64,000 nt of DNA from Sacculina carcini (taxonomy: Eukaryota > Arthropoda > Thecostraca > Sacculinidae): contig OU696588.1 of the NCBI GenBank assembly GCA_916048095.2, forward strand, positions 5,521,501-5,585,500. Direction: 5' to 3'. Under the pieces are notes generated by a model. That model had not been told where the DNA came from, made no database searches, and saw only the letters and a list, made by a program, of their open reading frames with translations. The translations under genes and the position numbers were made by a program. Below are positions 3,265 to 63,149 of this stretch, in pieces (positions within the stretch are counted from its first letter, which is position 1; each line of letters starts with the position of its first letter).

Positions 3265-3933
<669 letters not shown>

Positions 3934-4099
3934 ATAGCATTAAAACCCGCCCGTTGAGCGGAACAATTCATACGAATATTGCAAATTAAAAAATAAATAA
4001 GGCAAACTGATAAAACCCTAATCAATTGAAAAGTCTAAATTTCATTATATTTAATTTTATTTTGCCAAAATATTTTCACTCAGCCAGCTTCATATTTAA
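3934..4099. repeat. CCCGCCCG-motif repeat, left part (interrupted)
   Basis: A copy of the dispersed repeat that recurs across 3.9-12.4 kb, here with CCCGCCCGTTGAGCGGAAC at about 3946. It runs to CATATTTAA at 4099, where a piggyBac element interrupts it, and resumes at 5352. The motif contains GTGCGG and is usually followed by AACAATTCAT or AATAATTCAG. Confidence 0.6.
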
Positions 4100-7684: not shown

Positions 7685-9460
7685 ACTAGCATTAAAACCC
7701 GCCCGTTGTGCGGAAGAATTCATAAAAATATTGCAAATTAAAAATAAATAAGGCAAACTCATAAAAACCTTAATCAATTAAAAAGTCTAAATTTCATTAT
7801 TTTTAATTTACATTTTGACAAAATATTTTCACTCAGCCCGCCTCATATTTAAACCCGGCCGACGTGCGGAATAATTCAGAACTCGAACACCATCCGTTCT
7901 GGTTCTTGAAGTCAAATCCATTAGTTTTGTATATGAATTCATTCTACACGGTGAAATTGAACGTTTTATTGCTGCCCGCGGGACATTTTTATTTCATAAA
8001 AATGAGCCATCGCTTCGTTTGCGTTTGAAGCCCCTGATCATTGAACCAGCGAACCATGAACCAGCGCAATTATGTCACCTCATATTCAAGCATACATACA
8101 CAGACAGACAGATAATTTCTTCTTTATGTATATACTAGCATTAAAACCCGCCCGTTGTGCGGAACAATTCATAAAAATATTGCAAATTAAAAATAAATAA
8201 GGCAAACTCATGAAGACCTTAATCAATTAAAAAGTCTATATTTCATTATTTTTAATTTTATTTTGACAAAATATTTTCACTCAACCCGCCTCATATTTAA
8301 ACCCGCCCGACGTGAGGAAAAATTCAGAACTCGAACACCATCCGTTCTGGTTCTTGAAGTCAAATCCATTAGTTTTGTATATGAATTCATTCTATACGGT
8401 GAAATTGAACGTTTTATTGCTGCCCGCGGGACATTTTTATTTCATAAAAATGAGCCATCGCTTCGTTTGCGTTTGAAGCCCCTGATAATTGAACCAGCGA
8501 ACCATGAGCCAGCGCAATTCTGTCACCTCATATTCAAGCATACATACACAGACAGACAGATAATTTCTTCTTTATGTATATATATAGCATTAAAACCCGC
8601 CAGTTGTGCGGAGCAATTCATAACATGAAATTCATATTCAATTCATAAAAAATATGGAAAAATAAAAATGAAATAGGGTACACTCATAAAAATATTAATC
8701 AATTGAAAATTATAAGTTTAATTATTTTTATTTCGACACAATATTTCCCCTCAGTCCGCCTGAGTCATTTTTAAACCCGCCCGTCGTGCTGAATAATTCA
8801 GAACTCGAACACGATCCGTTCTGCATCTTGAAGTCAAATCCATTGGTTTTGTGTATGGATTAATTCTACAGGGTAAATTGAACGTTCTATTGTCTATAGT
8901 TGCTGCCCGCGGAACATTTTTATTTATAAAAAAAAAACCTTTTTTTAAATGAACCATTTGAAAAAATGATCTAAAAACACTTTTTTAAACCCACCCGTCG
9001 TGCGGAACAATTCATACAATAAAATTCATATCAAATCCATAAAATATAATGAATACAAATTGAAAAGCAAAAAATGTAACCTATAAATATCTTAACCAAT
9101 AGAAAAGTCTAAATGTGAATATTTTTGTTCTTATTTTGACAAATATTATCCCTCAACCCGCCTGATATATAAATCTGCCCGTCGTGTGGTATAATTCAGA
9201 ACACAAACACGAAACAAACAATGAAAGATGATGAAATCTTTTCATCAGACTGTTTCCAAACTATATTTATTACTTAACATCATTCCCCAATATCATTTGC
9301 TTAAGTACTATTTCACTTTTACCGCTATAATATTTATTGTTAAAATTTATATATTTTCCGCTATCATTAAAACCCAATATAACCTGAGTCAAACCTACCC
9401 AACCCAACCCAACCATTCAATCTTGACCGCTCTCAGCCTAGTCTGAGGTGATTTAACTTA
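7685..9460. repeat. Tandem ~449-bp repeat units
   Basis: Units beginning CTAGCATTAAAACCCGCC start near 7685, 8134 and 8583, a spacing of about 449 bp. Each contains the CCCGCCCG motif twice, a segment with GTTGCTGCCCGCGGGAC or a variant, and a CACAGACAGACAGATAA end. A frame of 121 codons at 8263-8628 spans one unit; it is not intact in the other copies and resembles no protein I know, so it is not called a gene. Degenerate copies continue to about 9230. Confidence 0.6.
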
Positions 9461-10057
9461 TTAGTTTGTGATCACAAAATATACTGATGCGATCATAATT
9501 TGTAATCAGAAGACTGAGATTATCTACCCCAGGGGTCCCAAACACGCGGCCCACCAATACTTTTCTCTCAACCCGCCAATATAGTATCGGGACCAAACTG
9601 TAAGGTAGCTAAATTCACATTTGTTGCATAATGCGATATAATTTTACACCATTATCATATTATCTCATAATTCCCGGTTAATGCTTCCACTAATGCATCA
9701 TATTCATACAGTTGTTATTTTTTGGATTACATCGATAATGCAGCCCTTGATATTACAGCCGATATTATATTATGCAATCTATATTCTGCTACGTATTATT
9801 CCTAATACATATATCATTAGATCGCAAAATATATTTAAAGGTTCACATCATTCTCCAAAATCATTTGCTTAAGAGCTATTCTACTTTTATCGCTAGAATA
9901 TTTACTGCTAGCAAAATATCATATACCTCGCTATCATTTAAACCCACTCTTTATAGATACATTTAATTCGCCCGTCGTGCGGAACAGTTCATAAAATATA
10001 ATTAATATTCAATTCATAAAAAAATTAGTGCAAATTGAAAAAGAAAAACAAACCCAC
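9461..10057. repeat. AT-rich sequence with repeat fragments
   Basis: AT-rich sequence with one further CCCGTCGTGCGGAAC motif at about 9970. No gene is supported. Simple ACCCAACCC runs occur just before it, at 9390-9415. Confidence 0.4.
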
Positions 10058-12121
10058 AGGAAAGTTATAGCTAATCTAAAAGTCTAAATGTGAAATTTAT
10101 GTTTCAATTTAGAAAACATGTTTTTCCACAACACTATCAAAACAATGCAACCTTCTGTCATCTCTATAATTCCAGGTTAATGCTTCCGCTAAAAAAGCAT
10201 AAGTTGGCATTACATGATATTGCAACCCATATTCTTATGCAACTTATGCTTATGCAACTTGAAATTAAACCAATTAAATTACACAGTTAAATTCAGTAGT
10301 TTACTTTGTTCCCAATAGCATTTTACCCGCCCGTCGTGCGGAACGTTATTGAGGACAATAAAGCCTTTATATTCAGTAGAGTGTAGCATTTATTAAACTG
10401 TACGCAATAAAACCACACCATCCATGCTTGGAGATAATATGATGCATTCTTAATTGTGATTGGGCTTCAGTGAAATTTAATCGGTGTATATTCCTGTGTA
10501 ATCGCAAGTGCGCATAATAGCTGTCAAATTGGCAATATGTCCTTTTGACTTTACACCGCCGTAACTTCCTTCAGATACCCTTTGGAAAATTACAAATTAT
10601 ACCGTATTGTAGAAGAAAAGATTTCTAGAACGATGGTATAATTTATTTTTATGTGTAACAAATAGTTACTGAGAAATAGTAGAAAAATGAATTAATTTTA
10701 GTCGCCCGGTGTTCAAGTGTAATTTTGGATGTATTTGAGAATTTTGCCAATTTTACACGTTTTTTGTATCATTTGTGGGTATAAATTATAGCTTATCTTG
10801 TAGAACACAAAATTCTCTACACAGTAGTATATTCCTGTGTAATCGCAAGTGCGTAAATTGTGATTGGACTTCAGTGAAATTTAATCAGTGTATATTCATG
10901 TGTAATCGCAAGTACGCATAATAGCTGTCAAATTGGCAACATGACATTTTGACTTTACACCGGCGTAACTTCCTTCAGATACACTTTGGAAAATTAATAA
11001 TTATACCGTACTGTAGGAAACAAAATTTCTAGCACGATGGTATAATTAATTTTAATGTATGACAAATAGTTACTGAGAAATGGGTATAAAAATGAATAAA
11101 TTGTAGTCACCCGGTGTTCAAGTGTAATTTTGGATGTATTTGAGAATTTTGCCAATTTTACACGTTTTTTGTATCATTTGTGGGTATAAATTACACCTTT
11201 TCTTGTAGAACACAAAATTCTCTACACAGTAGTATATTCCTGTGTAATCGCAAGTGCGCATAATAGCTGTCAAATTGGCAATATGTCCTTTTGACTTTAC
11301 ACCGCCGTCACTTCCTTCAGATACACTTTGGAAAATTAAGAATTATACCGCATTTTAAAAAATACAATTTCCAGCACGATGATATAATTTATTTTAATGT
11401 GTGACAAATAGTTCCTGAGAAATAGGTAGAAAAATGAATTAATTTAGGCGCCCGGTGATCAAGTGTAATTTTGGATGTATTTGACAATTTTGCCAATTTT
11501 ACACATTTTTTGTATCATTTGTGGGTATAAATTATACCTTTTCTTGTAGAACACAAAATTATCTACACAATAGTATAATTTTTATAGCTGTACCATTGCT
11601 GGTTTATGAGGAATAGATAGGGGAATATTTACCAAAACATTCACGGTTTCCAGTGCTAATTTTGCATTTTTGACTTTGTCATTTTGACTTCACACCGCCG
11701 TAACTTTTTTTTAATACACTTTGGAAAATTAAAAATTATACCGTGTTGTAGCAAACAAAATTCCCAGCATGATGGTATTATTTATTTAGTTGTGTGATAA
11801 TTAGTTTTTGATACATAGAGAAAAAAGTATAGAAAATCGGACGCGTGGAGTATAAATATAATTTTGAATATAGATTGAAATTTTGTCATGTTTACATCTT
11901 TTATGTTCTATTTTTGGATATGAATTATAACCTATCTTGTAGAACAGAACATTCTCTACACAGTGGTATAATTTGTTTGGCTGTACCATTTCTGGTTTAT
12001 GAGGAGTAGATGGCAGAGCATTGACCACAATTTTCGCATTTTTCAGGGTTCATTTTGTGTTTTCACCGCGATAACTTTTTTTGGTCTTATTTTTAAAATT
12101 TGAAATGAAATTTGAAATAGT
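10058..12121. repeat. 2064-bp tandem duplication, copy 1
   Basis: This block is repeated almost unchanged at 12122-14174 (offset 2064 bp). It begins AGGAAAGTTATAGC, contains one CCCGCCCGTCGTGCGGAAC motif (about 10326), and holds three diverged internal subrepeats beginning TTCCTGTGTAATCGCAAGTG (about 10490, 10830-10900 and 11228). Those subrepeats also occur singly at about 6940. Open frames here contain no recognisable domain. Confidence 0.85.
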
Positions 12122-14174
12122 AGGAAAGTTATAGCTAATCTAAAAGTCTAAATGTGAAATTTATGTTTCAATTTAGAAAACATGTTTTTCCACAACACTA
12201 TCAAAACAATGCAACCTTCTGTCATCTCTATAATTCCAGGTTAATGCTTCCGCTAAAAAAGCATAAGTTGGCATTACATGATATTGCAACCCATATCCTT
12301 ATGCAACTTATGCTTATGCAACTTGAAATTAAACCAATTAAATTACACAGTTAAGTTCAGTAGTTTACTTTGTTCCCAATAGCATTTTACCCGCCCGTCG
12401 TGCGGAACGTTATTGAGGACAATAAAGCCTTTATATTCAGTAGAGTGTAGCATTTATTAAACTGTACGCAATAAAACCACACCATCCATGCTTGGAGATA
12501 ATATGATGCATTCTTAATTGTGATTGGGCTTCAGTGAAATTTAATCGGTGTATATTCCTGTGTAATCGCAAGTGCGCATAATAGCTGTCAAATTGGCAAT
12601 ATGTCCTTTTGACTTTACACCGCCGTAACTTCCTTCAGATACCCTTTGGAAAATTACAAATTATACCGTATTGTAGAAGAAAAGATTTCTAGAACGATGG
12701 TATAATTTATTTTTATTTGTAACAAATAGTTACTGAGAAATAGTAGAAAAATGAATTAATTTTAGTCGCCCGGTGTTCAAGTGTAATTTTGGATGTATTT
12801 GAGAATTTTGCCAATTTTACACGTTTTTTGTATCATTTGTGGGTATAAATTATAGCTTATCTTGTAGAACACAAAATTCTCTACACAGTAGTATATTCCT
12901 GTGTAATCGCAAGTGCGTAAATTGTGATTGGACTTCAGTGAAATTTAATCAGTGTATATTCATGTGTAATCGCAAGTACGCATAATAGCTGTCAAATTGG
13001 CAACATGACATTTTGACTTTACACCGGCGTAACTTCCTTCAGATACACTTTGGAAAATTAATAATTATACCGTACTGTAGGAAACAAAATTTCTAGCACG
13101 ATGGTATAATTAATTTTAATGTATGACAAATAGTTACTGAGAAATGGGTATAAAAATGAATAAATTGTAGTCACCCGGTGTTCAAGTGTAATTTTGGATG
13201 TATTTGAGAATTTTGCCAATTTTACACGTTTTTTGTATCATTTGTGGGTATAAATTACACCTTTTCTTGTAGAACACAAAATTCTCTACACAGTAGTATA
13301 TTCCTGTGTAATCGCAAGTGCGCATAATAGCTGTCAAATTGGCAATATGTCCTTTTGAATTTACACCGCCGTCACTTCCTTCAGATACACTTTGGAAAAT
13401 TAAGAATTATACCGCATTTTAAAAAATACAATTTCCAGCACGATGATATAATTTATTTTAATGTGTGACAAATAGTTCCTGAGAAATAGGTAGAAAAATG
13501 AATTAATTTAGGCGCCCGGTGATCAAGTGTAATTTTGGATGTATTTGACAATTTTGCCAATTTTACACATTTTTTGTATCATTTGTGGGTATAAATTATA
13601 CCTTTTCTTGTAGAACACAAAATTATCTACACAATAGTATAATTTTTATAGCTGTACCATTGCTGGTTTATGAGGAATAGATAGGGGAATATTTACCAAA
13701 ACATTCACGGTTTCCAGTGCTAATTTTGCATTTTTGACTTTGTCATTTTGACTTCACACCGCTGTAACTTTTTTTTAATACACTTTGGAAAATTAAAAAT
13801 TATACCGTGTTGTAGCAAACAAAATTCCCAGCATGATGGTATTATTTATTTAGTTTTGTGATAATTAGTTTTTGATACATAGAGAAAAAAGTATAGAAAA
13901 TTGGACGCGTGGAGTATAAATATAATTTTGAATATAGATTGAAATTTTGTCATGTTTACATCTTTTATGTTCTATTTTTGGATATGAATTATAACCTATC
14001 TTGTAGAACAGAAAATTCTCTACACAGTGGTATAATTTGTTTGGCTGTACCATTTCTGGTTTATGAGGAGTAGATGGCAGAGCATTGACCACAATTTTCG
14101 CATTTTTCAGGGTTCATTTTGTGTTTTCACCGCGATAACTTTTTTTGGTCTTATTTTTGAAATTTGAAATTTAT
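12122..14174. repeat. 2064-bp tandem duplication, copy 2
   Basis: Second copy of the block at 10058-12121. By eye I count roughly ten substitutions over about 2.05 kb (for example near 12295, 12716, 13360, 13763, 13857 and 13901), so about 0.5% divergence. It breaks off at about 14174, where TTTGAAATTT is followed by sequence that instead matches 7530-7630. Confidence 0.85.
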
Positions 14175-27073: not shown

Positions 27074-27949
27074 ATGTTCCGGCAGAGTGAAATTACGTTG
27101 CCCAAACTAGACTGTGTTAGAAGGTGGGGGTCCACGTATGATATGCTGAAAAGTGTGAAAGAATGCAAGCCATTTCTGCATCAACTTGGGCTGGCTAATG
27201 ACTCTATGTTGATGGAAGATGATGAATGGTCGTGCATTAACGACTTGCTCCTGAGTCTACAGCCCCTGTACATAACTACTAAAGCCATTTAATTACAGCA
27301 CGTTACAGATGGAGAGTTCCTGGGCGAGTGGCTGAAGTGCAAGGTGAAGCTATCAGCTTTAGGAAGGATAAATATTTCAGGTGATATTCTTGAAGCCATG
27401 GAAAGCAGAGATGGCAAGCTTCTTAACAATCCCGCCTTCCTATCGGCGGTGTATATGGACCCGCGGTATCAATGCTTATTATCTGACACACAAAGAGAAG
27501 TTGCAAAAACACACCTCTGCACATTGTGGAAGAGATTGGAGATGATTGAAAAGAACGGTGACGACTTCCAGGAGAGGCATCGCGTACAGATTGCAGAAAA
27601 ATGCGAGTCAGACAGTGCAAGTGATGACAATATCATAGAAAAATTGCTCACCGAAGGGGATAAGTCAACTCGCAACAATGTAAGTGGCAAAATGACTGAA
27701 GTTTCGCTTACAATAGCAAGCTTCGATAATTCGCCAAGAATCGACAAAAAAGAGAATATTTTTCACTGGTGGCATCATCATACCCACATTGGTCTGAAAG
27801 CACTAGCAGAAGTTGCCATAGCACTTCCGTTGACTCAGGCCAGCGTTGAAATAAGTTTTTCTGGTCTGAATTACGTTCTCAATGAGCGACGGACAAGACT
27901 AAAATTTGATAAAATTGATGCGATCATGGTGCTAAGATGTAACACCTGA
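27074..27949 (+). pseudogene. hAT transposase, C-terminal part, with in-frame stop
   Basis: Two frames in the same register (27074-27292 and 27293-27949) are separated only by a TAA at 27290-27292, at a position where CAA (Gln) would keep the frame open. The first part reads CVRRWGSTYDMLKSV, typical of the region after the catalytic core. The end, with LTQASVEISFSGLNYVLNERR and LKFDKIDAIMVL, is the hAT C-terminal dimerisation domain. The BED finger and the first part of the catalytic domain are missing, so the copy is non-functional. Confidence 0.85.
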
Positions 27950-28815
27950 TACTGCAATCTTGCTACTGCCAACATTTCGTGCTTGCTCTAATGAATTTAT
28001 CGCTAGTGCCCTATATTCTGGCATATGCCATGCTTACCATAAAATGTTAATATGTCTTGTGAATTTGCAAATTGAATGTGTTAAATGTGAATGTATTTTA
28101 TGAACCAATACGTGCGTGAATTTGTATGGGTGCGGGAGCGTCGTGTGTGTGTATATATCGTAGAATTTAGGAGCATATGAGTACTTATGCATTTTTATTG
28201 AGCTCGACGACATTAATACATTTATGTGTCTATTATCGTTTCAGCTTGTGTTAACATCGGGGTAGATGACCCACTGCCATAACAACAACAATATGTATTT
28301 GTTTGAGCACAATTCCAGAAATCGGGTGGGAGGTACACGATAGAACCGAGTGAGAAAGTACATGCTTGTGAGAAATAATAGGTGAATGGCATGCTAACTC
28401 ATTGACTATTTCCATGGAACCTGGTATCTAGAAGAGTTCATATTTTACTCGCGTATAATGACTGTATGAACATGACGCAGAAACCTCATCATTGTGTTTG
28501 TATTTGCTTCAGCCGCGCCATATTATCATAAGCATATACAACCAACTCACTGAATTCGCCAGGGCTTTCAGTAATTTTACCAATAAAGTGAATATACCGA
28601 TAAAGTAATTTTACTTGATGTCGAAGGGTCCCATTTAACGTTTTCTTTTTATAATGTAAAGTTAAATAAGCGTATTTCATATACATTTCGTATTTCAATT
28701 AGTATTAAATATTTAGTAAAATATAATATCATGTGTGTAATAAAGTATATTATAGAATTCCACATATGGGGATAGCAAATATCGATTCAAGTCCTGTGAG
28801 AACGATTGCTGAGGG

Positions 28816-29059
28816 TGTTGTATGTATTAGCATTATGATATTTACTTATTGTGTGCATTTGTATGAATGAAAGAGTCATGCGTATGAAGCCACGTTATAT
28901 ATAATTAAGCTGTAGAATTGTGTATTGCGTATTGACTAATGTTTGATGTTGCCATGGGAACGGATGAGGGAATGTTGAATTCTCACAATGTGCGTGGTTG
29001 TTGTTGTTCGGAGTTGAAATCATACCGACGTGCTTTGTGAATACATATTTTTACTTACA
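28816..29059 (+). repeat. E1 5' LTR
   Basis: Begins TGTTGTATGTATTAGC and ends TTACTTACA. It matches 32651-32894 except for about two substitutions (A/T near 28874 and A/C near 29053). Confidence 0.93.
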
Positions 29060-29071
29060 AGCTATTTCGGC
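29060..29071 (+). promoter_or_regulatory. E1 primer-binding site, complementary to tRNA-Phe nt 1-12
   Basis: The 12 nt directly after the LTR, AGCTATTTCGGC, are the exact reverse complement of GCCGAAATAGCT, the first 12 nt of animal tRNA-Phe(GAA). No TGG, the usual start of a site complementary to a tRNA 3' CCA, occurs here. The match stops at the LTR edge, which would place the primer 3' end at nucleotide 12. The gag ATG follows four bases later. Confidence 0.7.
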
Positions 29072-29074
29072 AAT

Positions 29075-29821
29075 ATGGCTAATGTTAAGTTGACAGAAGT
29101 TGTGCGGACGTTTGATGGCTCCAGCAATGTGAATGACTGGCTGGACAAATTTGATTTGATCGTCCAATTGAGAGGCGTGGAAAACCCTGAAACAGTGTTA
29201 CCGATGTTTCTCGAGGGTAGCGCACTTTCCGTGTATACTGAGCTCAGTGCGCAGCAAAAACGGGATATTCATCAGATCAAGTCGGCGTTGCTGAACGCGT
29301 ATTCAGTGAATCCCTTCAAGGCGTATGAACAATTCTCGCAGCGAGTTTGGCGAGACGAGCCTGTGGATGTATACATGGCAGAGTTGCGCCAGTTGGCTCG
29401 CCTTGCCGGCATAGCCAACAACATACTGCTGCTGCGTGCATTTGTGGTCGGTTTGCCGTCGGCGGTGTCGCGAGAACTCAGAGCGACAGCTGGCATTGAA
29501 AGCATGAATTTGTCTTCTGTTGTGGAGCGCACGAGAGCACTCATGTCGGAGCTCCACGAGAATCAATCAGGAGCAGTTGCTGTCATCGGACCAAGGAATG
29601 GACCTGTACCCAGGCAGAATGTTCAGTGTTTGGAACGCCGCGGCACGCACGTTGCACGATTCTGTCCGAGAATGCCAAATCGGAACAACAACAACCAATC
29701 CAACAACAGACTTTGTTGGATTTGTGGCAAGCCAACCCATTTGGCTAGAGAGTGTCCATGCAGGCCGGGAAACGCCAAGGGAGAAGTTTCTGCGCCGGAA
29801 ATTTCTCCAAGTTCTCATTAA
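29075..29821 (+). CDS. gag: E1 Gag
   Basis: It encodes the structural nucleocapsid-type protein of the retrotransposon, 248 residues from the ATG at 29075. The N-terminal half has the capsid-like pattern seen in Ty3/Gypsy Gag (VNDWLDKFDLIV, then a Trp-rich ENPE to QLARLAG region). Near the C-terminus one good zinc knuckle is present, CWICGKPTHLAREC (CX2CX4HX4C). An upstream second knuckle, CLERRGTHVARFC, lacks its first Cys. The frame ends at 29821, overlapping pol by 70 nt. A slippery site at 29767-29773 lies in the overlap, so most product would stop as Gag and a fraction would continue into Pol. Confidence 0.88.
   Translation: MANVKLTEVVRTFDGSSNVNDWLDKFDLIVQLRGVENPETVLPMFLEGSALSVYTELSAQQKRDIHQIKSALLNAYSVNPFKAYEQFSQRVWRDEPVDVYMAELRQLARLAGIANNILLLRAFVVGLPSAVSRELRATAGIESMNLSSVVERTRALMSELHENQSGAVAVIGPRNGPVPRQNVQCLERRGTHVARFCPRMPNRNNNNQSNNRLCWICGKPTHLARECPCRPGNAKGEVSAPEISPSSH
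29767..29808 (+). promoter_or_regulatory. E1 -1 frameshift signal
   Basis: The slippery heptamer GGGAAAC (29767-29773) is in the Gag frame as G GGA AAC. A 6-nt spacer (29774-29779) follows. Then GGAGAAGTTTCT (29780-29791) can pair with GGAAATTTCTCC (29797-29808): 12 pairs with two G-U wobbles around a 5-nt loop. This is the classic arrangement for -1 recoding. Pol is exactly in the -1 frame. Confidence 0.85.
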
Positions 29822-32631
29822 TGGCGCTTCCAATTGTAGATGGTTTTATTTGTGGTCGCCCCGGTAGGATTCTCATTGATACTGGATGCACACAGTCATT
29901 AGTTGGTTCATGGGTGCTACCATATTATTCGTTGAGTAAGGGCGTCGTGATGGGAGTTGATGGAAAAGAAGTGGATACGTTAGGCACTGTGAATCTTTGT
30001 CTAAGCGTGAATGGTGTCTCACAGAAGGTGAAGTGCATAGTGATTGGAAAGTTGCTTCAAGGTGTGGATGCAATAGCTGGGTTGGACTTCATTCAGTTGG
30101 TCGGTGGATTTGCGTGGAAAGACGGGGTAGTATCATTTAACAACACCAACGTGGACGAACTAACGGCCGGACTTTCCGGTGAACCAGCAATTGAACGCGC
30201 GCAATGTGCAGCAAACGTCGTGACCCCAAGAAAACTTTCGATCAATGACACTGATTTTGTCGCTGATTTTGATGGATCATCATGGGTTGTCAAATGGTGT
30301 TGGAAGGATGGCGAGAGTCCTGATTTAATGAATAAGATCGATTGCTATCAAAGTAACAGAACCAACGAAGTCAAGGCGCAATGGGAAGAGGAATTGTTTT
30401 CATGGATTGACAAGGGGTGGCTCAAGAGATGTGAAAACCAGAACGACAGAAGAGGAATAATACCTTTGATGACAGTTGTGCAGGTAAATAAAAATAAGGT
30501 GCGACCTGTCCTAGACTACCGAGAGTTAAATCGGTCAGTGGAGAGTCATCCAGGTGCTGATGTTGCGGTGTGTACGGAAACACTGAGAAATTGGAGACGC
30601 ATGTCGAGAAACTTGAAAATTGTTGATTTGAAGTCTGCATATTTGCAGATACAGGTTGACAGGCGGTTGTGGCCGTATCAACGAGTGATTTTCAGAGGTG
30701 TTGTTTATTATCTTACCAGGCTCGGGTTCGGTCTAAGCTCGGCACCGAAAATTATGACAGCAATTGTGAAGAACGTTTTGGAGCAAGATGCGCGTGTGAA
30801 ATCTGGTACTGATTGTTACATTGATGATGTAATAGTAAATGAAGACATTGTATCAGCGGAAACAGTGACCAAACATTTAGCCCAGTACGGACTCGAGGCG
30901 AAAGCTCCGGAGTCATTGGATGGAGGACGTGTCCTGGGTCTGAAGGTGGCGCGTAGGGGAGGAAAAGTGTGTTTCAGTCGAGGAAACGTGCTTCCGACTG
31001 AGGATGAAATAAAAATGAAAATGACCCGTAGAGAGATGTTTTCAATCTGTGGCAAAATTGTGGGTCATTACCCTGTATGTGGATGGCTTCGAGTGGCGAG
31101 TAGTTATATTAAGCGGTCAAGCGAGGGACAACGATGGGAAGATGAGGTAGGAAGCACAGCCGTAGGAATGCTCAAAGAAATGCTGACGCGAATTGCTCGA
31201 GAAGATCCTGTGAGAGGGACTTTTTATGTGTCATCGACACCAAAAGGCAGTGTGTGGTGCGATGCGAGTAGCTTAGCTGTCGGTGCTACTGTAGAAATTT
31301 GTGGCCAAATAGTGGAGGATGCAGCTTGGCTCCGGAAGTCGGATGATTGTCAGCATATAAACCTTGCTGAATTAGATGCTGTACTGAAAGGCATCAACCT
31401 GGCTCTAAAGTGGGACTTGAAAGTGATTGAAGTGTATACTGATTCTGCCACTGTTTTGAGATGGGTACGCTCGACTCTGGAAGGTGATAGAAGAATAAAG
31501 GTGACGGGAATGTCAGAGATACTTGTGAAACGACGACTGTCAGTTTTGAAAGAACTCGTTGATGAGTTGAAACTGAGTATTTCTTTGACACTGGTTCCAT
31601 CGGAGAAAAACAAAGCTGATGTATTAACACGCGTTCCGAAGACTTGGATGAGGGCAAATACAGTGGCTGCTGTAATAGCGTCAGTCGTCGACATTGAAAG
31701 ACTGCACTCGGACCACCATTTTGGTACTGAGAGAACACTGAATTTGGCGAGATTGGTGGACCCTTCGGTGCGAAGAGAAAGTGTGGAAGCTGTTGTGAAG
31801 CGGTGTAGAGTCTGTAAGATGGTAGACCCAGCTCCTGTGCGTCACGAGCCCGGTGAACTTAGTGTTCGTGAAAATTGGACACGCTTAGCGTTGGATGTGA
31901 CGCACTATCGTGGACAGTCATATCTAACACTAATTGATTGTGGTCCAAGTCGCTTTGCGATATGGCGTGAAGTGGCCTCTGAAAACGCCAAAGATATATG
32001 TCGGCATCTGACGCAAATACTCCTAGAGAGAGGGCCACCGGAAGAATTTCTTATGGACAACAGTCGTGCGTTTCGATCTTACGAGGTTGCAGAATTGTGC
32101 AAGGCATATAATATACTTCAGCATTACAGGGCGGCCTATAGACCATCAGGGAACGGTATTGCAGAACGTATGCACCGCACAATCAAGGTGATGGCATCAA
32201 GATCCAGAGACAGTCCACTGAAGATGGTATTCTGGTACAATCTGGCGGCAAAGGAGAATGCCAATGGCAGTACAGCACCATCGGAAGCGATATTCAATTA
32301 CCACTGGAGGCATCCTGCTGCCAAAACAACACATATGCGTGACACCACCAATTCGCGATACAAGTTAGGAGATACGGTGGTGGTGAAACCGAGCGACAGA
32401 CGATGCACGTCCAGGTGGACAGAGGGGAAAGTCACTGGTGTACGTTCGGAAAATATAGTGGATGTTGACGGTGTTCCGAGACACGTCCTTGATATCCGTC
32501 GATTGTTCATTGAAGATGATTCAGAAGACGACCGGTCAGCCGTTGAATCAGAGGGCAATACAGTGGAAGTTCCGAGAAGATCACAGCGTAACAGACGGCC
32601 ACCAGTGTGGATGGCCGACTATGTCAGATGA
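29767..32631 (+). CDS. pol: E1 Pol (protease, RT, RNase H, integrase)
   Basis: The -1 frame is open through the slippery site to 32631. Counting from 29752, the aspartic protease motif LIDTGC has its Asp at about 43. The reverse transcriptase shows VRPVLDYRELN, IVDLKSAYLQ and CYIDDVIV (Asp 358-359). RNase H follows (WCDASSLAVGA, then LAELDA and YTDSATVL). Integrase has an HHCC finger (HSDHHFG to CRVCKMVD) and DDE residues in ALDVTHY, LMDNSRAF and GNGIAERMH. No chromodomain is seen. Integrase lies after RT, which excludes Copia order. All catalytic residues are present, so the copy may be active. Confidence 0.9.
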   Translation, partial: GKRQGRSFCAGNFSKFSLMALPIVDGFICGRPGRILIDTGCTQSLVGSWVLPYYSLSKGVVMGVDGKEVDTLGTVNLCLSVNGVSQKVKCIVIGKLLQGVDAIAGLDFIQLVGGFAWKDGVVSFNNTNVDELTAGLSGEPAIERAQCAANVVTPRKLSINDTDFVADFDGSSWVVKWCWKDGESPDLMNKIDCYQSNRTNEVKAQWEEELFSWIDKGWLKRCENQNDRRGIIPLMTVVQVNKNKVRPVLDYRELNRSVESHPGADVAVCTETLRNWRRMSRNLKIVDLKSAYLQIQVDRRLWPYQRVIFRGVVYYLTRLGFGLSSAPKIMTAIVKNVLEQDARVKSGTDCYIDDVIVNEDIVSAETVTKHLAQYGLEAKAPESLDGGRVLGLKVARRGGKVCFSRGNVLPTEDEIKMKMTRREMFSICGKIVGHYPVCGWLRVASSYIKRSSEGQRWEDEVGSTAVGMLKEMLTRIAREDPVRGTFYVSSTPKGSVWCDASSLAVGATVEICGQIVEDAAWLRKSDDCQHINLAELDAVLKGINLALKWDLKVIEVYTDSATVLRWVRSTLEGDRRIKVTGMSEILVKRRLSVLKELVDELKLSISLTLVPSEKNKADVLTRVPKTWMRANTVAAVIASVVDIERLHSDHHFGTERTLNLARLVDPSVRRESVEAVVKRCRVCKMVDPAPVRHEPGELSVRENWTRLALDVTHYRGQSYLTLIDCGPSRFAIWREVASENAKDICRHLTQILLERGPPEEFLMDNSRAFRSYEVAELCKAYNILQHYRAAYRPSGNGIAERMHRTIKVMASRSRDSPLKMVFWYNLAAKENANGSTAPSEAIFNYHWRHPAAKTTHMRDTTNSRYKLGDTVVVKPSDRRCTSRWTEGKVTGVRSENIVDVDGVPRHVLDIRRLFIEDDSEDDRSAVESEGNTVEVPRRSQRNRRPPVWMADYVR

Positions 32632-32650: not shown

Positions 32651-32894
32651 TGTTGTATGTATTAGCATTATGATATTTACTTATTGTGTGCATTTGTATG
32701 AATGAAAGAGTCTTGCGTATGAAGCCACGTTATATATAATTAAGCTGTAGAATTGTGTATTGCGTATTGACTAATGTTTGATGTTGCCATGGGAACGGAT
32801 GAGGGAATGTTGAATTCTCACAATGTGCGTGGTTGTTGTTGTTCGGAGTTGAAATCATACCGACGTGCTTTGTGAATACATATTTTTCCTTACA
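32651..32894 (+). repeat. E1 3' LTR
   Basis: 244 bp, TGTTG to TTACA, preceded by the purine-rich CACGGGGAAG and followed by the GAGGG duplication. Confidence 0.93.
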
Positions 32895-33140
32895 GAGGGT
32901 ACGAAAAGGTACGGAATTACGGTACGAATTTATTTTCGTACTAGTACGGTACGATTGAAAAAATGAGGTACGGTACCAAAGTACGGTACGAAATTTTTTC
33001 GTTGGTACGAGTCACGAAAAACCAATCGTACATTACCGTACTTCATTCTCTGCGTGCAATGAACACGCACTGTCACACTGAAAATGATAGAATTCTCGCG
33101 CAGGGCAAATACTAGATCCTCCGTTTTTTCAAATAAGAAT

Positions 33141-37555: not shown

Positions 37556-40507
37556 TCACGGTACACTGGAGTATTGTTTGGCCAGTAAATGTTTTCTTAA
37601 CTCTTTTTTGAATTTGGTAAAGCTTCCTCCTATAAGAAGTTGTTTTATCTCTGACGGCAGACCGTTGAATATTCTTGGTCCGTCGTATATAATACTGTTC
37701 TTGTATATTTGTGTTCTATATGACGGTACTTCCAGGTCTATGTTGTTTGATCTTGTCCGTCTTTCTCTGTTCAGCAATTGAAACGGTGATCCACACCGTA
37801 TTGTTTTATGTATCAGCAATACTGCGAAGTATTGGCGTATGGAGTTAATGTTCAGTATGTTTTTGTTGTGATAAACTTGTTCCGTTGATTGGTACTTTTT
37901 CATGAAGTAAATGCACCGGAGGAACCTGTTTTGTGCAATTTGTATAGTTTTGAGAAAACTTGGCCAAGTGTTCGCCCATATTGATGCACAGTATGTTATA
38001 TGTGGATAGAAGAGTGAATAGTACAGGTTCATCATTAAGTCTGCAGATAAATTGTGTCTTGTGCGATAAAATATACCAGTAATTTTTGAGAGTTTGCTGT
38101 CCACTTCCTCAATTTGATGTCTCCAATTTAAATTTTCGTCGATGTATAATCCAAGGAATTTGGTATGTTTTACCATAGATATAGGTTCTCCGTTGATAGA
38201 TATTGCTGGAAAGTCAAATTGAAGTGATCTGTTCTTGAATAAAACACATTTTGTTTTACTGGTGTTTATTTTTAACTTATTGTCTTGTACCCATCTATTA
38301 ATTTTTTCCAATTCCTCAGTTAAAGTGGTGTGCAGCTTGTCCAGTGAGTCATCTTTTAGTAACAGAGTGGTGTCGTCTGCATAAATGGTGTAGTGAAATT
38401 TCTCGCTGGCGTTTATTATGTCATTAATGAATATTAGGAACAACGTTGGCCCGAGAATTGAGCCTTGTGGAACTCCATTTTGAATAGCAAGAGCCGGCGA
38501 CACCTCATTATTGCATGCGACGAACTGTTTCCTATCGCACAGGTAGCTTTTTATCAATTTTAAACAAACTCCTCTGATACCCAGGTTTTCCAATTTGTCG
38601 TACAGAATGGTGTAATCAAGACTGTCAAAAGCCTTGGACAGATCAATGAATATACCCATGGATATCTCTTTTTCCTCTAAGCATTTGTATACTTGATGAA
38701 CGAAACTTAATATTGCTTTTTCTGTGGATCGGTTTTCTCTGAACCCAAATTGCTGCGTTATCAGCAGTTCATTTTTTTCAAGGTAGGAGCACAGTCTCGA
38801 GTTAATGATAGATTCAAAAATTTTGCTGAATGCGGGTAGAATTGATATTGGCCGATAGTTATTGACTGCGGTTTTGTCCCCTGATTTGTGTACCGGTAGA
38901 ACTCTTGCTGTTTTCATTTGGCGTGGGAAATAGCCGTCCTTTAATGATAAATTTATTATATGGCATAGGGGTAAGGATATGTAAGGAGATGTTCGTACTA
39001 ACACTTTTGGTGGAATGTCGTCGTATCCGGGGGAGTTGGACTTCATTGAAGAAATCACTCTGTTGATCTCAGCTTCGGTAGTGGGTTCCATAAACATGGA
39101 GAATGTGGTTGGATGCTTCAAGTAACGTCTGTGATCAGTACGTGTTTCTGGAGTTGCAAGTGAGGTTTTCAGGAAATGAGTGTTGAAGGTTGCGGCTGTG
39201 TTCGCGCATGGCGGATGCAATTCGATTGTTTGAGATTTGTTCTGTTTTCTACCCATTAGTAAATTTAGAATAGACCATTGTTTTTTCGGGTCGTGCCTGT
39301 TCTCGGTGAGTTTGTTTTTATAGTATTGATTCTTTGCAGCACGGAGTATGGTAACTAGTTTATTTCGGTACTTCCTGTATGTTTCCCCGTATGTAATTGG
39401 CCACTTTTTTGATAACGTTTTTAGTCTGTTTTTCTCAGTTATGCACTTTTTTAGTGATGCTGTTATATGTGGACTTATTGTGTTCTTTGTTTTGTTTTTC
39501 AGCATTTTCAGTGGAAATTGTATATCGAATGTCTCTTTGAATTTGGAGTAAAATATATCGAAAGCCTCGTCAGCGCATTCACAATTCAAGACGTCTTCCC
39601 AATTAGTTGATCGGATGATTTGATTAAAACCATTCAATTTGTCATCACTCAACACCCTACGTCTAACATAATTTTGATCCTGACTTGATAACGGAGTTAC
39701 ACGGAACTGTGAGACTGCTGGGTAATGATCGGTTATGTCGGTCTCGATGATCAGGTTTCTACTGTTTGCTTGCATCTCAGTGGTCCAAATGTGGTCAATC
39801 AAAGTCGCTGTGTTATCTGTTACTCTGGTTGGTCTGGTGATTGTGGGAAACAGATAGTTTGAATACATAATGTTTATGAAGTTATTTGTGTTTTCGGTTG
39901 ATTTCAGTAGATCAATGTTGAAATCTCCAAATATAGCAATGTTTTTGTACTTTTTGCAGCTATTAATATCAGCCATAATATCTTGAATTATTTCGTTGAA
40001 TTTGGATAATTTTCCGTTTGGAGGTCTATATATACACATGCATATTGTCCAATAATTATTGTGTTTTATTTGCACAGAGAGAGTTTCTGCGTGAGACGAG
40101 GATATTGTATACTCTGCTACCTGTTTCGATTTGTAGCTATCTTTCACAAACATTGCCACTCCACCGCCATGAATATTTCTTTCATTAAAATAACTGTTGT
40201 AACCCGGTAATGCATACAGCGGTAAATATTCCTTGTTCAGCCTGATTTCGTTCAATCCCACGATTTCAGGGCTCAGAGAACTTCCCGCCATGATTTCGTC
40301 TATAAATTGTTGAAAGTTTTTTGGTATAGATCGTATGTTGAAAGTTAAAATGGTCATGGTTTTATTGTCTGGATTGGGTAATTTTTCAGGTAGAACGTAC
40401 TCAGTTTCAGGAGTATTAATTGTGTTGAGGTATCTGTCAACATCAGAATCGATATGATAGCCTGGTTTTATGGTTTCAAATTTGAGGCAATCATTGTTTG
40501 GAATCAT
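37556..40507 (-). CDS. LINE ORF2: endonuclease and reverse transcriptase
   Basis: 983 residues from the ATG at 40507, with no stop or frameshift. The N-terminus is an APE-type endonuclease that nicks the target (LTFNIRSIPKN, GLNEIRLN, IYRPPNGK, GDFNIDLL, LIDHIW, ITDHYPA). The reverse transcriptase starts near residue 500, with VLPVHKSGDK and NNYRPIS, then IFIDLSKAFDSLD (motif A), NGVPQGSILGP (motif B) and IYADDTTLL (motif C, Tyr about 709). A thumb and C-terminal region follow. It would copy its own RNA at the nicked site. Domain order and motifs fit the CR1/Jockey group. Every catalytic motif is present, so it may be active. Confidence 0.93.
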   Translation of the reverse strand: MIPNNDCLKFETIKPGYHIDSDVDRYLNTINTPETEYVLPEKLPNPDNKTMTILTFNIRSIPKNFQQFIDEIMAGSSLSPEIVGLNEIRLNKEYLPLYALPGYNSYFNERNIHGGGVAMFVKDSYKSKQVAEYTISSSHAETLSVQIKHNNYWTICMCIYRPPNGKLSKFNEIIQDIMADINSCKKYKNIAIFGDFNIDLLKSTENTNNFINIMYSNYLFPTITRPTRVTDNTATLIDHIWTTEMQANSRNLIIETDITDHYPAVSQFRVTPLSSQDQNYVRRRVLSDDKLNGFNQIIRSTNWEDVLNCECADEAFDIFYSKFKETFDIQFPLKMLKNKTKNTISPHITASLKKCITEKNRLKTLSKKWPITYGETYRKYRNKLVTILRAAKNQYYKNKLTENRHDPKKQWSILNLLMGRKQNKSQTIELHPPCANTAATFNTHFLKTSLATPETRTDHRRYLKHPTTFSMFMEPTTEAEINRVISSMKSNSPGYDDIPPKVLVRTSPYISLPLCHIINLSLKDGYFPRQMKTARVLPVHKSGDKTAVNNYRPISILPAFSKIFESIINSRLCSYLEKNELLITQQFGFRENRSTEKAILSFVHQVYKCLEEKEISMGIFIDLSKAFDSLDYTILYDKLENLGIRGVCLKLIKSYLCDRKQFVACNNEVSPALAIQNGVPQGSILGPTLFLIFINDIINASEKFHYTIYADDTTLLLKDDSLDKLHTTLTEELEKINRWVQDNKLKINTSKTKCVLFKNRSLQFDFPAISINGEPISMVKHTKFLGLYIDENLNWRHQIEEVDSKLSKITGIFYRTRHNLSADLMMNLYYSLFYPHITYCASIWANTWPSFLKTIQIAQNRFLRCIYFMKKYQSTEQVYHNKNILNINSIRQYFAVLLIHKTIRCGSPFQLLNRERRTRSNNIDLEVPSYRTQIYKNSIIYDGPRIFNGLPSEIKQLLIGGSFTKFKKELRKHLLAKQYSSVP

Positions 40508-42000: not shown

Positions 42001-42594
42001 TACAATAGGAATAAGTCGCACAATAAACAGCATTAGTAAGCATTGGTAAACCGCATGTGATCACAAAATCACACGTTGAAAAAGCGCCCATGCTAAAGGA
42101 ATATGTCATGCGGGTGACCTGCAGTGACCTCAAACACAGCGGCATCAGTAGCTGAAGCTGTGATCGATTACAAGTGTTGTCTTGGTGACGTCTGGTTGTG
42201 AACAGGGTTCATGGCCTTCTCATGTATCACCCATCATCTCCGTCCTCCTTGAGTATGTGAGAGTATGCGCGCCATAACACACACACACACACACATACAC
42301 ATGCACATACGTAACTACAGACAGACATACATACACACAAAGTGGCTGTCTGGGAGGTCGCATTTATTGACCATAGAATTGTCAATGTCACACGTACACA
42401 CATACACACACATACACATACACGTACACACACACACACTGACACACACACGCACACACACACACTGATACAAACGCACACACGTACGTAAAGTTGTGAA
42501 GACTTGAATGAGCATGCGAGGTCATGGCAATTGTGGGTGAGTCGCGGAAACTGGTAATCAGTTGTGGTGACGCTCAGTGTGAGGCAGCGACAAA
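42001..42594. repeat. Non-coding, CA/CATA microsatellites
   Basis: CA-rich tracts lie at 42273-42335 and 42390-42482. The LINE 5' region may extend into the left part. No gene is supported. Confidence 0.5.
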
Positions 42595-43118
42595 ACGACA
42601 AGAATAACACTGTCACAAAACGACAAGAATAACACTGTCACAAGACGACAAGAATAACACTGCCACAAGACGACAAGAATAACACTGCCACAAGATGACA
42701 AGAATAACACTGTCACAAGATGATATGAATAACACTGTCACAATACAAGAATAACACTGCCACAAGACGACAAGAATAACACTGCTACAAGACGACAAGA
42801 ATAACACTGCCACAAGACGACAAGAATAACACTGCCACAAGACGACAAGAATAACACTGCCACAAGACGACAAGAATAACACTGCCACAAGACGACAAGA
42901 ATAACACTGTAACAAGACGACAAGAATAACACTGCCACAAGACGACAAGAATAACACTGCCACAAGACGACAAGAATAACACTGCCACAAGACGACAAGA
43001 ATAACACTGTAACAAGACGACAAGAATAACACTGCTACAAGACGACAAGAATAACACTGTAACAAGACGACAAGAATAACACTGCCACAAGATGACAAGA
43101 ATAACACTGCCACAAGAC
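42595..43118. repeat. 25-bp minisatellite, about 21 copies
   Basis: The unit is ACAAGACGACAAGAATAACACTGCC with few variants (GCT, GTA, GTC before ACAAG). The period is 25 bp, so each strand reads through the unit in all three frames. The minus strand is open in all three frames for 270-500 nt. This explains the repetitive Cys/Leu/Val frames, which are not genes. Confidence 0.95.
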
Positions 43119-43431
43119 GACGACAACAACCAAATTGCCTTGCAAAATGAGTTTAACGCGTCGTTACTGCCACATTTTTTTCATTCCGGGAAAGGACAGA
43201 AGGAAAGTGCAATACAGGATTATGCATCGATTTGATGACGCGATTATTTCCAGCCTCTAGGCTTATCATTTCGGACCTCTATTGTCACATTTCTCCAGCA
43301 AATGCTTCACAGTCAAACTGACCCCCCAATGTCTCCATCAACTCATAACCAAGAGGTTCACTAAAAGTGGTTAATTCTGTAGAATTTGTTGATATAAGCA
43401 TTGTCGCAAAGATACTGCATAATGATGCATG
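43119..43431. other. No recognised gene
   Basis: Unique-looking sequence with no open frame of note. It ends with GATGCATG, the left target duplication of the next MITE. Confidence 0.4.
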
Positions 43432-48950: not shown

Positions 48951-49269
48951 TGTGGTTGAATATATTGAAGTAAAGGTGAACACAAATGCACAATGTAAGC
49001 AAGCACTCCACTGAGCCAGCAACATAAAACACTACGTAGTTAAAATACAATATACGTATCACAACGATATCTCCACCGCACTCCCACACACTTCTCTCCT
49101 CACGCCGAGATTCACACCGCACTGTCTCCCATCAACACGACAACACGATCAACAAACTCATCGCTGCCACCTGATACCTCGTCAGCACCTTGCAACGAGT
49201 GCATTGTGAAAACATACACCCGCACACAAACATACATACACAAAGCGGAACACTACGCCAGCAAATGCA

Positions 49270-49305
<36 letters not shown>

Positions 49306-49374
49306 CACACACACATGCACATAACGAAAACCTTCACCTACAACAATATGACAAGATAATATATCAAAACCACA
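48951..49374 (-). repeat. E2 3' LTR
   Basis: 424 bp; in plus orientation TGTGGTTGAA to AAAACCACA, with a CA microsatellite inside (about 49269-49320). On the minus strand it is preceded by the purine-rich GATCAAGGGGGA. Confidence 0.9.
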
Positions 49375-49392: not shown

Positions 49393-52287
49393 TCACTCGG
49401 ACACGTAATCATTCATCCAGACCGGAGGTAGTCTCTCTCGTACACTTCGTCTAGGACTTTGCCTGATGGGCGGTTCCGAAGTTGGTGTTTCGGTGACCTC
49501 AGAGTGATCACCGTTCTCTCCGTCAGCCGGAATGACCACGGGTCTCAAGTCCAATATGTGACGAGGTACACCATCCACCGACATATTATTTGACGAGTTC
49601 ACCCCCGTTACAGTACCACGGGTCCACTGCGAAGTACACCTCCGATCTGGTGGTTTTACCCACACTTCCTCACCGATGTGAACAGCACATTATTCCGAAT
49701 CATTATCGACAGTGCATTCTACAAATGTATTTCGCCACTCATACTTGTGTGCATTGCGATGAGGCACTGACGATTCCTCCACACCAACCCTCGGAGACAT
49801 GTTATACCAGTATACCGCCGTAGTCGGTGGTATGTTACATCTTTCGGCGAGCGCTTTTATCGTCCGATGGTGGCGTTCAACAATGCCATTGCCGGTAGGG
49901 CGGTAGGCTGCGCGGTAAAACGGCCGAATCTTCCAATTGTCCAGCAGCTCCTGCATTTCTCTGGAACTTAACGCTCTCCCGTTGTCCATTAACAGCTCAC
50001 GAGGTGATCCTCTCTCTCGGAAAACTTCATCCAGATGCTTACATACCTGCTCCGCTGTCTCAGACCGAAGCTCACGCCACACCGCAAATCTACCTGGTCC
50101 GCAATCGACAATCGACAAGTACTGATGGTGTTCATAGTGGGTCACATCCACGGCCAGTCTGCACCACGCGTCGTTCACACTAAGATGTCCTGCAGCATGG
50201 CGTGAAGGAGCGGGATCAATGGATTGGCACCGCTCACAGGCTCTCACCACTCGCCGCACAGCGTCGCGTGACACACTAGGGTCCGCTTGTCGGGCTAAAA
50301 AAAGAGTCCTGTCTACACGCATGTGATGCATGCCATGCATCTGCCGAATTTCTTCTGCAGTCATTGCACATATATGACTGTCTTCTTTGTCATGTTCACA
50401 GCCGCTTTTGACGGCATTTCCAGCTTTGACTAACCATCCCTTTTTCACGCGAGTCAGTTCATCAGTTTTATTTTGCGTGGTCGGAACACTCGTGACGGAT
50501 ATTTTCAAACCAAGTTCTGCAATGAGATCGCTCAAAATTCCCAATCTTCTCTTGATCAAGACTTCCGCTGCACCCTTTGTTTTCACTCTTCTTTCCCTGT
50601 CGATCACTGTGCTTACCCAGCCGGCTACTGTTGCAGAGTCTGTGCGAATATCAATATCCTTCAATTGCCATTTCACCGCCATGTTCACACCTTTCAGTAC
50701 TGCATCAAGTTCCGCGACATTGATATGATGTACATCATCAATTTTCCTTTGCCAAGCAGCATTTTCAACGATGTGGCCCTCAATCTCCACTGCTGCACCC
50801 ATTGCAATGCTGCTCGCATCGCACCACACGACACCTTTGTCAGTGACAGAAACATGCCATTTTCCACCAACCGGATCATCAGATCTCACTCTTTTGACCA
50901 TATCAACCACCATCTGCATAACGAAATCGCTAACTGCACTGTCCCATTGTATTCCATCGGTATGACGTTTTATGTAGCTACTGGCAATCCTTAGCCACCT
51001 AGCAACTGGGTAATGCCCGATCATTTTTCCACACAACGAGAATATATCACGCTTCGTCATGTTGTCTGAGACTGATGGAACTGCATTGCCCCTGCGAAAC
51101 ACAACACGACCACGATTTTCTTTACTCAATCTGAGACCCAACACAGCACTTCCCTCTATAGACTCCGGATCTTTCGCTTGCAGGCCATATTTGTTTAAAT
51201 GGTCGACGACTTCCCTGCCGGACACAGCCGATTCGCATACGATAATGTCATCGATGTATGAATCCGTGCTCTTGTTGATGATTTCCGACTGACTCAGAAC
51301 GGTGCGCACTATTCGAGTCATAATTCTCGGTGCGGAGCACAGTCCAAAACCCAATCTAGTCAAGCAGAAGACATTGCCATTATATTTCACCAGCTGGTAC
51401 TTCCATAAATTCGGGGCGATATGCACCTGCAAATACGCGGACTTCAAATCAACGATTGAAGCTGGTCCAACGATGCGCCTCCACTTCCTCAGCTTCTCTC
51501 CGCACACATCTAAAAACTCGTCCCCCGTGTGGCTACTGACAAATGCATTTAACTCTCGAAAGTCCAGCACTGGTCGCACTTCGTTTTTAGTGGGCTGTAC
51601 CGCTGCCATGAGTGGCAGTACGCCTGTGCAGTCTGAACCAGTCCATGGAATGAGAATTCCTTCCTTAATCCACCGCTTCACCTCGGTGTCAAATTCACCA
51701 CGGATATCTTCAGCCACTGTCTTGTTGTAACAACCCACTGTTTTTGACAAGAATGGTTCACCTGCTTTCACCACCCATTCCACTTCCCATTTGTCACCAT
51801 CGAACACGGCGGTGAAGTCCGGATCAGTGATCTCCAGTCTCCGTTTAGCACAGCATTGCACTTCATCACTTTTGGAAACCGCAGCGCTTGCAACATTGTC
51901 ATTTGAGCCAAATTTGACTTGAGAGCCACACACAAAAACACCACCAATCTTCTCGATTACCTCCATCCCAATCACAAGGTCGACATCATTCAAAATATTA
52001 TCAACGACCATAGCACACACTCTTAGACACTTTCCAGATATCTCGATATCAATCACAGCCGTGCCACGACACTCTATCCTTCGTCCGCCAAAAGCCGTTA
52101 AATAACTACTGCCTGCGATGCAATTAACAAGGTGTGACCGAACAATAGCCCCAGAACAACAAGTATCGACTAGTGCGTGAATCGTCTCACTTGAGAGTTT
52201 TGCCTCGACGATTGGCAGTTGGTTGGGCGCCTTCACTGATTGCTTGGAGTAGCGGCTGGCGCACCAGTTACTCCTGAACCGTTTCCC
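49393..52287 (-). pseudogene. pol: E2 Pol, with premature stop and altered protease motif
   Basis: The frame runs from the slippery site at 52287 to a TAA at 49692-49690 (after DNDSE), then continues in the same frame through VWVKPPDRRC to the natural end at 49393. E1 reads through this position, so the TAA is a nonsense mutation removing about the last 100 residues. Protease reads ALVDTCCSGA, that is DTC instead of DTG. RT has VRPVLDFREL, IVDLKSAYLQ and SYIDDIIV. RNase H has WCDASSIAMGA. Integrase has MHGMHHM to CERCQSID and VDVTHY, LMDNGRAL, GNGIVERHH. Most catalytic residues remain. Confidence 0.88.
52246..52287 (-). promoter_or_regulatory. E2 -1 frameshift signal
   Basis: On the minus strand GGGAAAC (52287-52281) lies in the Gag frame as CAG GGA AAC. 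A 6-nt spacer GGTTCA follows, then a hairpin (52274-52246) with GGAGTA pairing TACTCC and inside it CTGG pairing CCAG. Pol is the -1 frame. Confidence 0.8.
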
Positions 52288-60422: not shown

Positions 60423-60427
60423 CAAAT

Positions 60428-62354: not shown

Positions 62355-62398
<44 letters not shown>

Positions 62399-63126: not shown

Positions 63127-63149
63127 GTCTTTCAATACATGTTGTTACA

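Follow-up and report, generated by a model that had tools for sequence, protein, structure and literature searches.

Two related LTR elements, E1 and E2, lie in a 64,000-nucleotide stretch of the Sacculina carcini genome (the window), and directly behind the 5' LTR both carry a sequence that could pair with the start of a tRNA. This raises the question of how their minus-strand DNA is primed. From a comparison of sequences we consider it most likely that the lineage of E1 and E2 is primed by a 5' fragment of a tRNA and not by the 3' CCA end.

Structure of the elements and their primer sites

E1 (about 4.1 kb, forward strand) has two long open reading frames, LTRs with TG..CA ends, and a perfect 5-bp target-site duplication, GAGGG, at positions 28811–28815 and 32895–32899. 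The 5' LTR (TG...CTTACA, 28816–29059, 244 bp) is 99.2% identical to the 3' LTR (32651–32894). The gag ORF (29075–29821, 248 aa) begins 3 bases past the primer site and is followed by the pol ORF (29752–32631), which comprises a protease-like DTG motif recognized by eye, reverse transcriptase, DUF7047, RNase H, and integrase. Pfam places RVT_1 at 248–363, RVT_3 at 530–575, and rve at 713–798 of E1 pol; the RVT_1 scores of 25.1 bits in E1 and 21.1 bits in E2 are both below the Pfam cut-off of 29.6. The order of reverse transcriptase, RNase H, and integrase in E1 is that of Ty3/gypsy-like elements.

E2 is situated on the reverse strand. Its 5' LTR (TGTGG...CCACA, 62036–62473) is 93.6% identical to its 3' LTR (48951–49374), and its flanks, ATTAC and GTTAC, agree in four of five letters, so that E2 like E1 has two LTRs, TG..CA ends, and a target duplication in the range of 4–6 bp. 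The pol ORF (49690–52359) is 45% identical to that of E1, whereas the LTRs of the two elements appear unrelated by eye. The gag ORF of E2 is interrupted, its 5' part (61523–62012) ending at the insertion of a further, gypsy-type element, E3 (52629–61522, reverse strand), whose LTRs (60428–61522 and 52629–53723, 1,095 bp) are 100% identical.

In E1 the sequence adjoining the CA of the 5' LTR is AGCTATTTCGGC (29060–29071, forward strand), the exact complement of nucleotides 1–12 of tRNA-Phe; in E2 it is AGCTAACCGGCC (62024–62035, reverse strand), the exact complement of nucleotides 1–12 of tRNA-Ile(AAT). Both 12-mers are unique within the window. The initial annotation had described both matches and the missing TGG start, and we found the same: the two sites open with AGCTA right at the LTR. 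It had also used E3 as an example of an ordinary tRNA-His 3' primer site, and this holds, too. The E3 site (60405–60422, reverse strand) begins 5 bases past the LTR and matches the 3' end of human tRNA-His, which may differ from that of the host, in 17 of 18 letters. A TGG start together with a match to a tRNA 3' end is thus found in E3 but in neither E1 nor E2.

Distribution of the sites in the genome

By our own arithmetic, taking about 45 tRNA types, an exact match to one of their 5' 12-mers is expected by chance at about three in a million sites. In the 264-Mb assembly the Phe 12-mer is present in 2,021 copies (1,016 + 1,005), and the same pattern written backwards in 5 (3 + 2). ACA stands immediately before 56 of the 61 Phe 12-mers listed for contig C1 (1–6.79 Mb) and is missing before the other 5. 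The wider pattern ACA-AGCTA-N6-C was found at 3,669 places as compared to 1,691 for its backwards control; of the 100 places listed, the 11 with sequence shown comprised one Ile site, two Phe sites, and eight with neither. These copy numbers of 2,021 versus 5, the ACA context, and the borders of 11 families described below led us to reject chance as the source of the matches, as the initial annotation had argued from two elements.

Frequencies were estimated from loci sampled by their pol sequence. A search with the reverse transcriptase region of E1 gave 105 matches (104 candidates scored); the first-look candidates of the lineage, 3,696 with E1 and 3,871 with E2, are not confirmed copies. 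The best 30 loci, E1 itself included (L039), comprised 27 with the exact Phe site, one with 11 of 12 letters (L064), and two without a site (L048, L049). In 20 further loci, picked for diversity from the remaining 75 rows of the E1 list, the Phe site was exact in 17 and the Ile site in one (L087), and two had no site (L075, L085). The expectation that other copies of the family carry the site was therefore borne out: including E1, 44 of 50 loci have the exact Phe site, one the Ile site, one a site with 11 of 12 letters, and four none. A third sample consisted of 15 stretches of 165 bases, eight from the E2 list and seven from the E1 list. Four of them contain the exact Phe site (L107, L109, L114, L115) and 11 have no site in view; the L108 stretch breaks off before the site, its end lying about 50 bases ahead of that of its E2 counterpart, and by eye we took L110 and L112 to lie within gag and L101–L106, L111, and L113 to be misplaced. 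Every recognized site in the three pol-based samples opens with AGCTA directly after the LTR. Loci found by means of the 12-mer or of a tRNA (L001–L008, L089–L092) were left out of these counts.

The Ile site occurs in E2 and in L087, the pol of which is 61% identical to that of E1. Conversely, L107 carries the Phe site, is 60% identical to E2, and is absent among the E1 matches listed. These relationships suggest that the primer may switch between tRNA-Phe and tRNA-Ile within the lineage.

Borders of the match and position of the primer 3' end

In 11 families (E1, E2, L050, L068, L071, L074, L078, L087, L107, L109, and L114) we compared the 12-letter block with its neighbors. CA precedes the block in all 11, and the block is a full match to tRNA-Phe in nine and to tRNA-Ile in two; the following letter is A in four, T in five, and C in two families and thus not constant. 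The block therefore reaches from the LTR edge to tRNA nucleotide 1 throughout, and the borders given in the initial annotation for two elements apply to all of these families. The LTR edge was also located by comparison with the second LTR in E1, E2, L006, and L090: the shared sequence stops at the site, with L006 agreeing for one letter further. A fifth comparison, L091, was dropped because its match was a simple repeat. According to the standard scheme of LTR-element replication, a block with these two borders is expected if the LTR edge is determined by the primer's 3' end, with the plus strand copying the primer up to its 5' end.

Nucleotides 8–12 (TAGCT) are the same in tRNA-Phe and tRNA-Ile, and only site positions 6–9 and 11 discriminate between the two. 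AGCTA is constant at the start of the block in 11 of 11 families, and all families seen match tRNAs with TAGCT at nucleotides 8–12; a panel of 25 tRNA 5' ends included 23 others (10 from the host, 13 from elsewhere), and no sampled site matched any of these in 12 of 12 letters. Because of the shared letters, a primer ending at nucleotide 12 would leave the same sites as one ending at nucleotides 8–11 and followed by fixed AGCTA letters or trimmed bases. The initial annotation had proposed priming by a 5' fragment with its 3'-OH at U12. Of this proposal, the exact match, its presence in many families, its extension to at least two tRNAs, its position against the LTR, and the lack of a self copy in E1 and E2 all stand; the 3'-OH at U12 is not established, since AGCTA is indistinguishable here from a fixed motif of the element. 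Integrase trims two bases beyond the CA in several retroelements, and if it does so in this lineage the primer could end at nucleotide 10.

We therefore considered a reading in which AGCTA is a fixed motif of the element at the LTR border, serving integrase trimming or the nuclease, and the true primer pairs through seven acceptor letters or through nucleotides 1–8 to 1–10; the fragment would then have fewer than 12 nt, or the LTR end would be trimmed. The shared nucleotides 8–12 and the constancy of AGCTA speak for it. On the other hand, such a primer of 7–10 nt would be shorter still, AGCTA is exact for both tRNAs, and there are zero extra bases between LTR end and site in E1, E2, L006, and L090. 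Overall we regard this reading as unlikely.

It is rather improbable that an intact tRNA docks at the site through its 5' strand, as an aid to packaging or annealing, and that synthesis starts from another 3'-OH. Accessory pairing of the tRNA is known from HIV. Bipartite primer sites are described for Ty1 and Ty3 in the available part of a review (PMC5371799). Against docking, the match covers the whole stretch between tRNA nucleotide 1 and the LTR edge, the point at which synthesis has to begin, and no complement of at least 9 nt to the tRNA 3' end was found when E1 was compared with human tRNA-Phe and both parts of E2 with host tRNA-Ile.

Possible sources of the primer

A fragment of a host tRNA as primer calls for host tRNAs with the corresponding 5' ends. 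The pattern GGCCGGTTAGCTCAG occurs at 10 places in the genome; eight were fetched, and all eight are tRNA-Ile(AAT) genes starting with GGCCGGTTAGCT. For tRNA-Ile, the 5' end assumed in the initial annotation is hence that of the host. For tRNA-Phe, no gene was found in the 264-Mb assembly of 43 contigs with two exact patterns, an anticodon-arm pattern, a loose D-arm pattern, a 26-mer with up to three mismatches, and BLAST; BLAST with human tRNA-Phe returned two partial matches only, the loci L089 and L090 described below. A general tRNA search (63 of 15,013 candidates scored, 51 matches) showed no Phe or Ile gene in the 30 loci examined. A tRNA-Phe must exist in this genome, and its gene may lie outside the 43 contigs or be unusual in form. 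If the Phe reading is correct, the tRNA should start with GCCGAAATAGCT.

With the source of the Phe primer unseen in the assembly, an RNA of a different kind beginning with these letters, e.g., a tRNA-derived SINE or a stable tRNA-like RNA, might be thought to act as primer. GCCGAAATAGCTCA is present at just two places, however, and Rfam finds no tRNA at either; one of them (L092) resembles a primer site whose adjoining LTR end has been altered. The eight examined places with the Ile pattern were all tRNA-Ile genes, and no dispersed RNA family is visible with either pattern. We judge such a primer very improbable, and a tRNA-Phe SINE in particular was set aside as unsupported by the two places.

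Self-priming of the Tf1/sushi type, in which the element transcript primes itself through pairing of its 5' end with the site, was also considered, as Tf1-type elements likewise have no site for a tRNA 3' end according to the available text of a plant survey (PMC6317226). The window contains no sense copy of either 12-mer, hence E1 and E2 contain none, in agreement with the earlier statement that the 12-mer is absent from both LTRs. The best match in the LTRs is 6 of 12 letters in E1 as well as in E2, which is under the mean of shuffled sequences, and the sites match two different tRNAs from nucleotide 1. On these grounds self-priming is hardly credible for the lineage, and for E1 and E2 themselves we rejected it.

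The preferred source thus remains a 5' fragment of tRNA-Phe, or of tRNA-Ile in some families.

tRNA-Phe fragments joined to element DNA

The two partial BLAST matches are stretches of tRNA-Phe next to element DNA, both in inverted-repeat settings. In L089 (about 1501–1535, reverse strand) nucleotides 38–65 of tRNA-Phe are followed by TTTCGGC and then by the internal region of an element. TTTCGGC can be read as nucleotides 66–72 of the tRNA or as the last letters of the primer site; the join is therefore ambiguous, and the fragment extends from nucleotide 38 to somewhere between 65 and 72. In L090 (1501–1530, reverse strand) nucleotides 38–67 lie beside antisense pol DNA.

Both fragments begin exactly at nucleotide 38. 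Nucleotide 37 of tRNA-Phe is m1G or wybutosine. The fragments resemble tRNA sequence that was reverse-transcribed and incorporated into aberrant cDNA: judging from the common start, minus-strand DNA would have switched onto tRNA-Phe and halted before the modified base at nucleotide 37. m1A58 can be misread by reverse transcriptase, and the change of A58 to T in L089 would fit such a misreading, which leaves a second change in the T-arm of L089 unexplained; L090 has no change at 58. The two loci seem to link tRNA-Phe to the reverse transcriptase acting on this lineage, and L089 seems to link it to the site itself.

L090 also contains a short element (about 1530–2387, reverse strand) with two LTRs of about 220–227 bp, about 400 bp between them, and a Phe site; it is probably mobilized by coding elements. 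The right end of the window (62788–64000) has stretches 77–92% similar to the L089 element, itself similar to L005 and L006, and the exact Phe site was not found there. In L002 (about 1501–1522) the primer site is followed by a partial inverted copy, AGCTATTTCGGCCAAATAGCT, with which a hairpin could form.

Proposed priming mechanism

We propose that tRNA-Phe, or tRNA-Ile in some families, is cut in or near the D-arm, and that the resulting 5' fragment of about 12 nt (GCCGAAAUAGCU or GGCCGGUUAGCU) pairs with the 12-nt site. The sites, their borders, their spread over many families, the match to two tRNAs, and the absence of a self copy from E1 and E2 are observed; the D-arm cut, the size and 3' end of the fragment, and the priming itself are inferred. 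Reverse transcriptase would extend the 3'-OH of the fragment straight into the LTR, and plus-strand strong-stop DNA would then copy the attached fragment up to its 5' end. By this step each cycle would restore the site to a length of exactly 12 letters, and since strong-stop DNA would run to the natural 5' end of the tRNA, no modified base would be needed as a stop. The remainder of the cut tRNA may be kept in the particle, and its acceptor strand, now free, could serve to capture the minus strand as it grows, an event suggested by L089. Several points count against priming by a 5' fragment: 12 nt is short for a primer, the searches described above found no tRNA-Phe gene in the assembly, the two tRNAs agree at nucleotides 8–12, some of the pol-sampled copies show no site, and 5 of the 61 Phe 12-mers lack the ACA context.

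Comparison with known primer systems

Conventional primer sites usually have about 18 nt. Like that of E3, they take their primer from the host tRNAs and lie past the 5' LTR; E1 and E2 differ in matching the opposite end of the tRNA, in a length of 12 nt, in having no TGG, and in the absence of a gap to the LTR. The site of Tf1/sushi elements, of about 11 nt, resembles those of E1 and E2 in that it is short, lies right behind the LTR, and does not start with TGG. There the element's own RNA primes, whereas a self copy is absent from E1 and E2, and their sites match two host tRNAs.

The plant survey distinguishes, in its available text, whole tRNAs, half-tRNAs cut in the anticodon stem, and self-primers, the half-tRNA sites being confined to Ty1/copia lineages (PMC6317226). 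The Ty3 review, as far as its text is available, mentions the half-tRNA of copia, the tRNA-independent start of Tf1, and for Ty5 a cut in the anticodon loop that is attributed to RNase P (PMC5371799). In Drosophila copia, yeast Ty5, and the Ty1/copia lineages alike, a tRNA fragment whose 3' end was newly created inside the molecule pairs beside the LTR, which is the situation proposed here. Cut and site of copia and Ty5 are located in the anticodon arm, whereas the site of E1 and E2 corresponds to nucleotides 1–12 with a proposed cut in the D-arm; furthermore, the domain order of E1 and E2 is Ty3/gypsy-like. No anticodon-arm complement was found in E1 among matches of at least 9 nt to human tRNA-Phe, nucleotides 1–12 being the only match. 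E2 matches tRNA-Ile at nucleotides 1–12 and in a 9-nt stretch (nucleotides 13–21) in the 3' part of the element, remote from the site. Helenus TRIMs and their fungal Copia partners share with the lineage of E1 and E2, as it is read here, internal tRNA 3' ends, several tRNAs, and primer switching, but their sites belong to the anticodon loop and not to the tRNA 5' end, and animal Helenus elements use tRNA 3' ends (PMC10886601, available part).

Priming from a tRNA 5' end was not found reported in the available parts of the open-licence PMC literature, including PMC6238403, PMC8556966, PMC3286476, PMC6317226, PMC5371799, and PMC10886601. The sites point to priming by a short front fragment of a tRNA as an undescribed start of reverse transcription. 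We think it probable that E1 and E2 represent a fourth kind of LTR-element primer, a roughly 12-nt 5' fragment of tRNA-Phe or tRNA-Ile released by a cut in the D-arm, with the rest of the tRNA kept in the particle. If so, the three types of the plant survey would be joined by one that serves a large lineage of compact retrotransposons here and relatives in other sources. A nuclease releasing a functional 5' tRNA fragment would be implied, and the function of tRNA fragments would become directly testable. Programs that detect primer sites by a tRNA 3' end or TGG, the approach described in the available text of PMC6317226, would score elements of this type as having no site.

Relatives in other sources

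A protein search with pol gave 932 relatives with E ≤ 0.001 among 7,992 scored. The 120 relatives listed come mostly from contigs of 3–5 kb, the organism names given being Argonauta, Petrolisthes, Aplysia, and Plakobranchus, and by eye nearly all rows contain DUF7047 (PF23088). Searches of viral contigs and genome contigs gave no match for DNA of these relatives, and the gag comparison was thus one of peptides, with the underlying codons not in view. In two of the relatives, P0021 and P0036, extended tracts of internal repeats separate the protease-like part from the reverse transcriptase.

Some gag proteins seem to start inside the LTR, in which case the N-terminal extension would be the translated primer site. 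Of 88 gag matches, 22 have at least 22 residues before an anchor motif and nine, P0204 included, have no anchor. The peptide TSYFG is present in P0128 and P0141, which are 92% identical to each other, and QAISA in P0204. Translated in two frames, ACA followed by the Phe site gives these peptides, both of which are absent from the rest of the set of 208 proteins. They suggest that gag genes of other sources may carry the same Phe site. The frame-A pattern (TSYFG, and TSYHG in P0189) has two occurrences in 17,269 background residues. QAIAA (P0158, P0179), QASRA (P0196), and QANTA (P0183) were set aside, as the pattern of their frame occurs 17 times in the same 17,269 residues.

As a lead only, KLSR (P0126, P0165, P0167) and SYRG (P0140) would fit a site AGCTATCGAGGC; the frame-C pattern (KLSR) has 35 occurrences in the 17,269 background residues, and KLSR is also found in six other proteins of the 208. 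Such a site would suit the nematode-like tRNA-Phe start GCCTCGATAGCT. SYHG in P0189 fits no tRNA that we could name. Most of the remaining gag extensions look like ordinary gag coding sequence.

Other features of the window

Outside the three LTR elements, the window contains a hAT transposase end (27344–27949, forward strand) and a non-LTR retrotransposon ORF coding for an endonuclease plus a reverse transcriptase (37556–40507, reverse strand). A short motif around CCCGCCCGTTGTGCGGAACAATTC recurs in eleven dispersed copies at 3941–10021. They are followed by a tandem duplication of about 2.06 kb (10058–14170), the copies of which are 99.6% identical, and a 25-bp unit array with 19 register copies listed is situated at 42537–43228.
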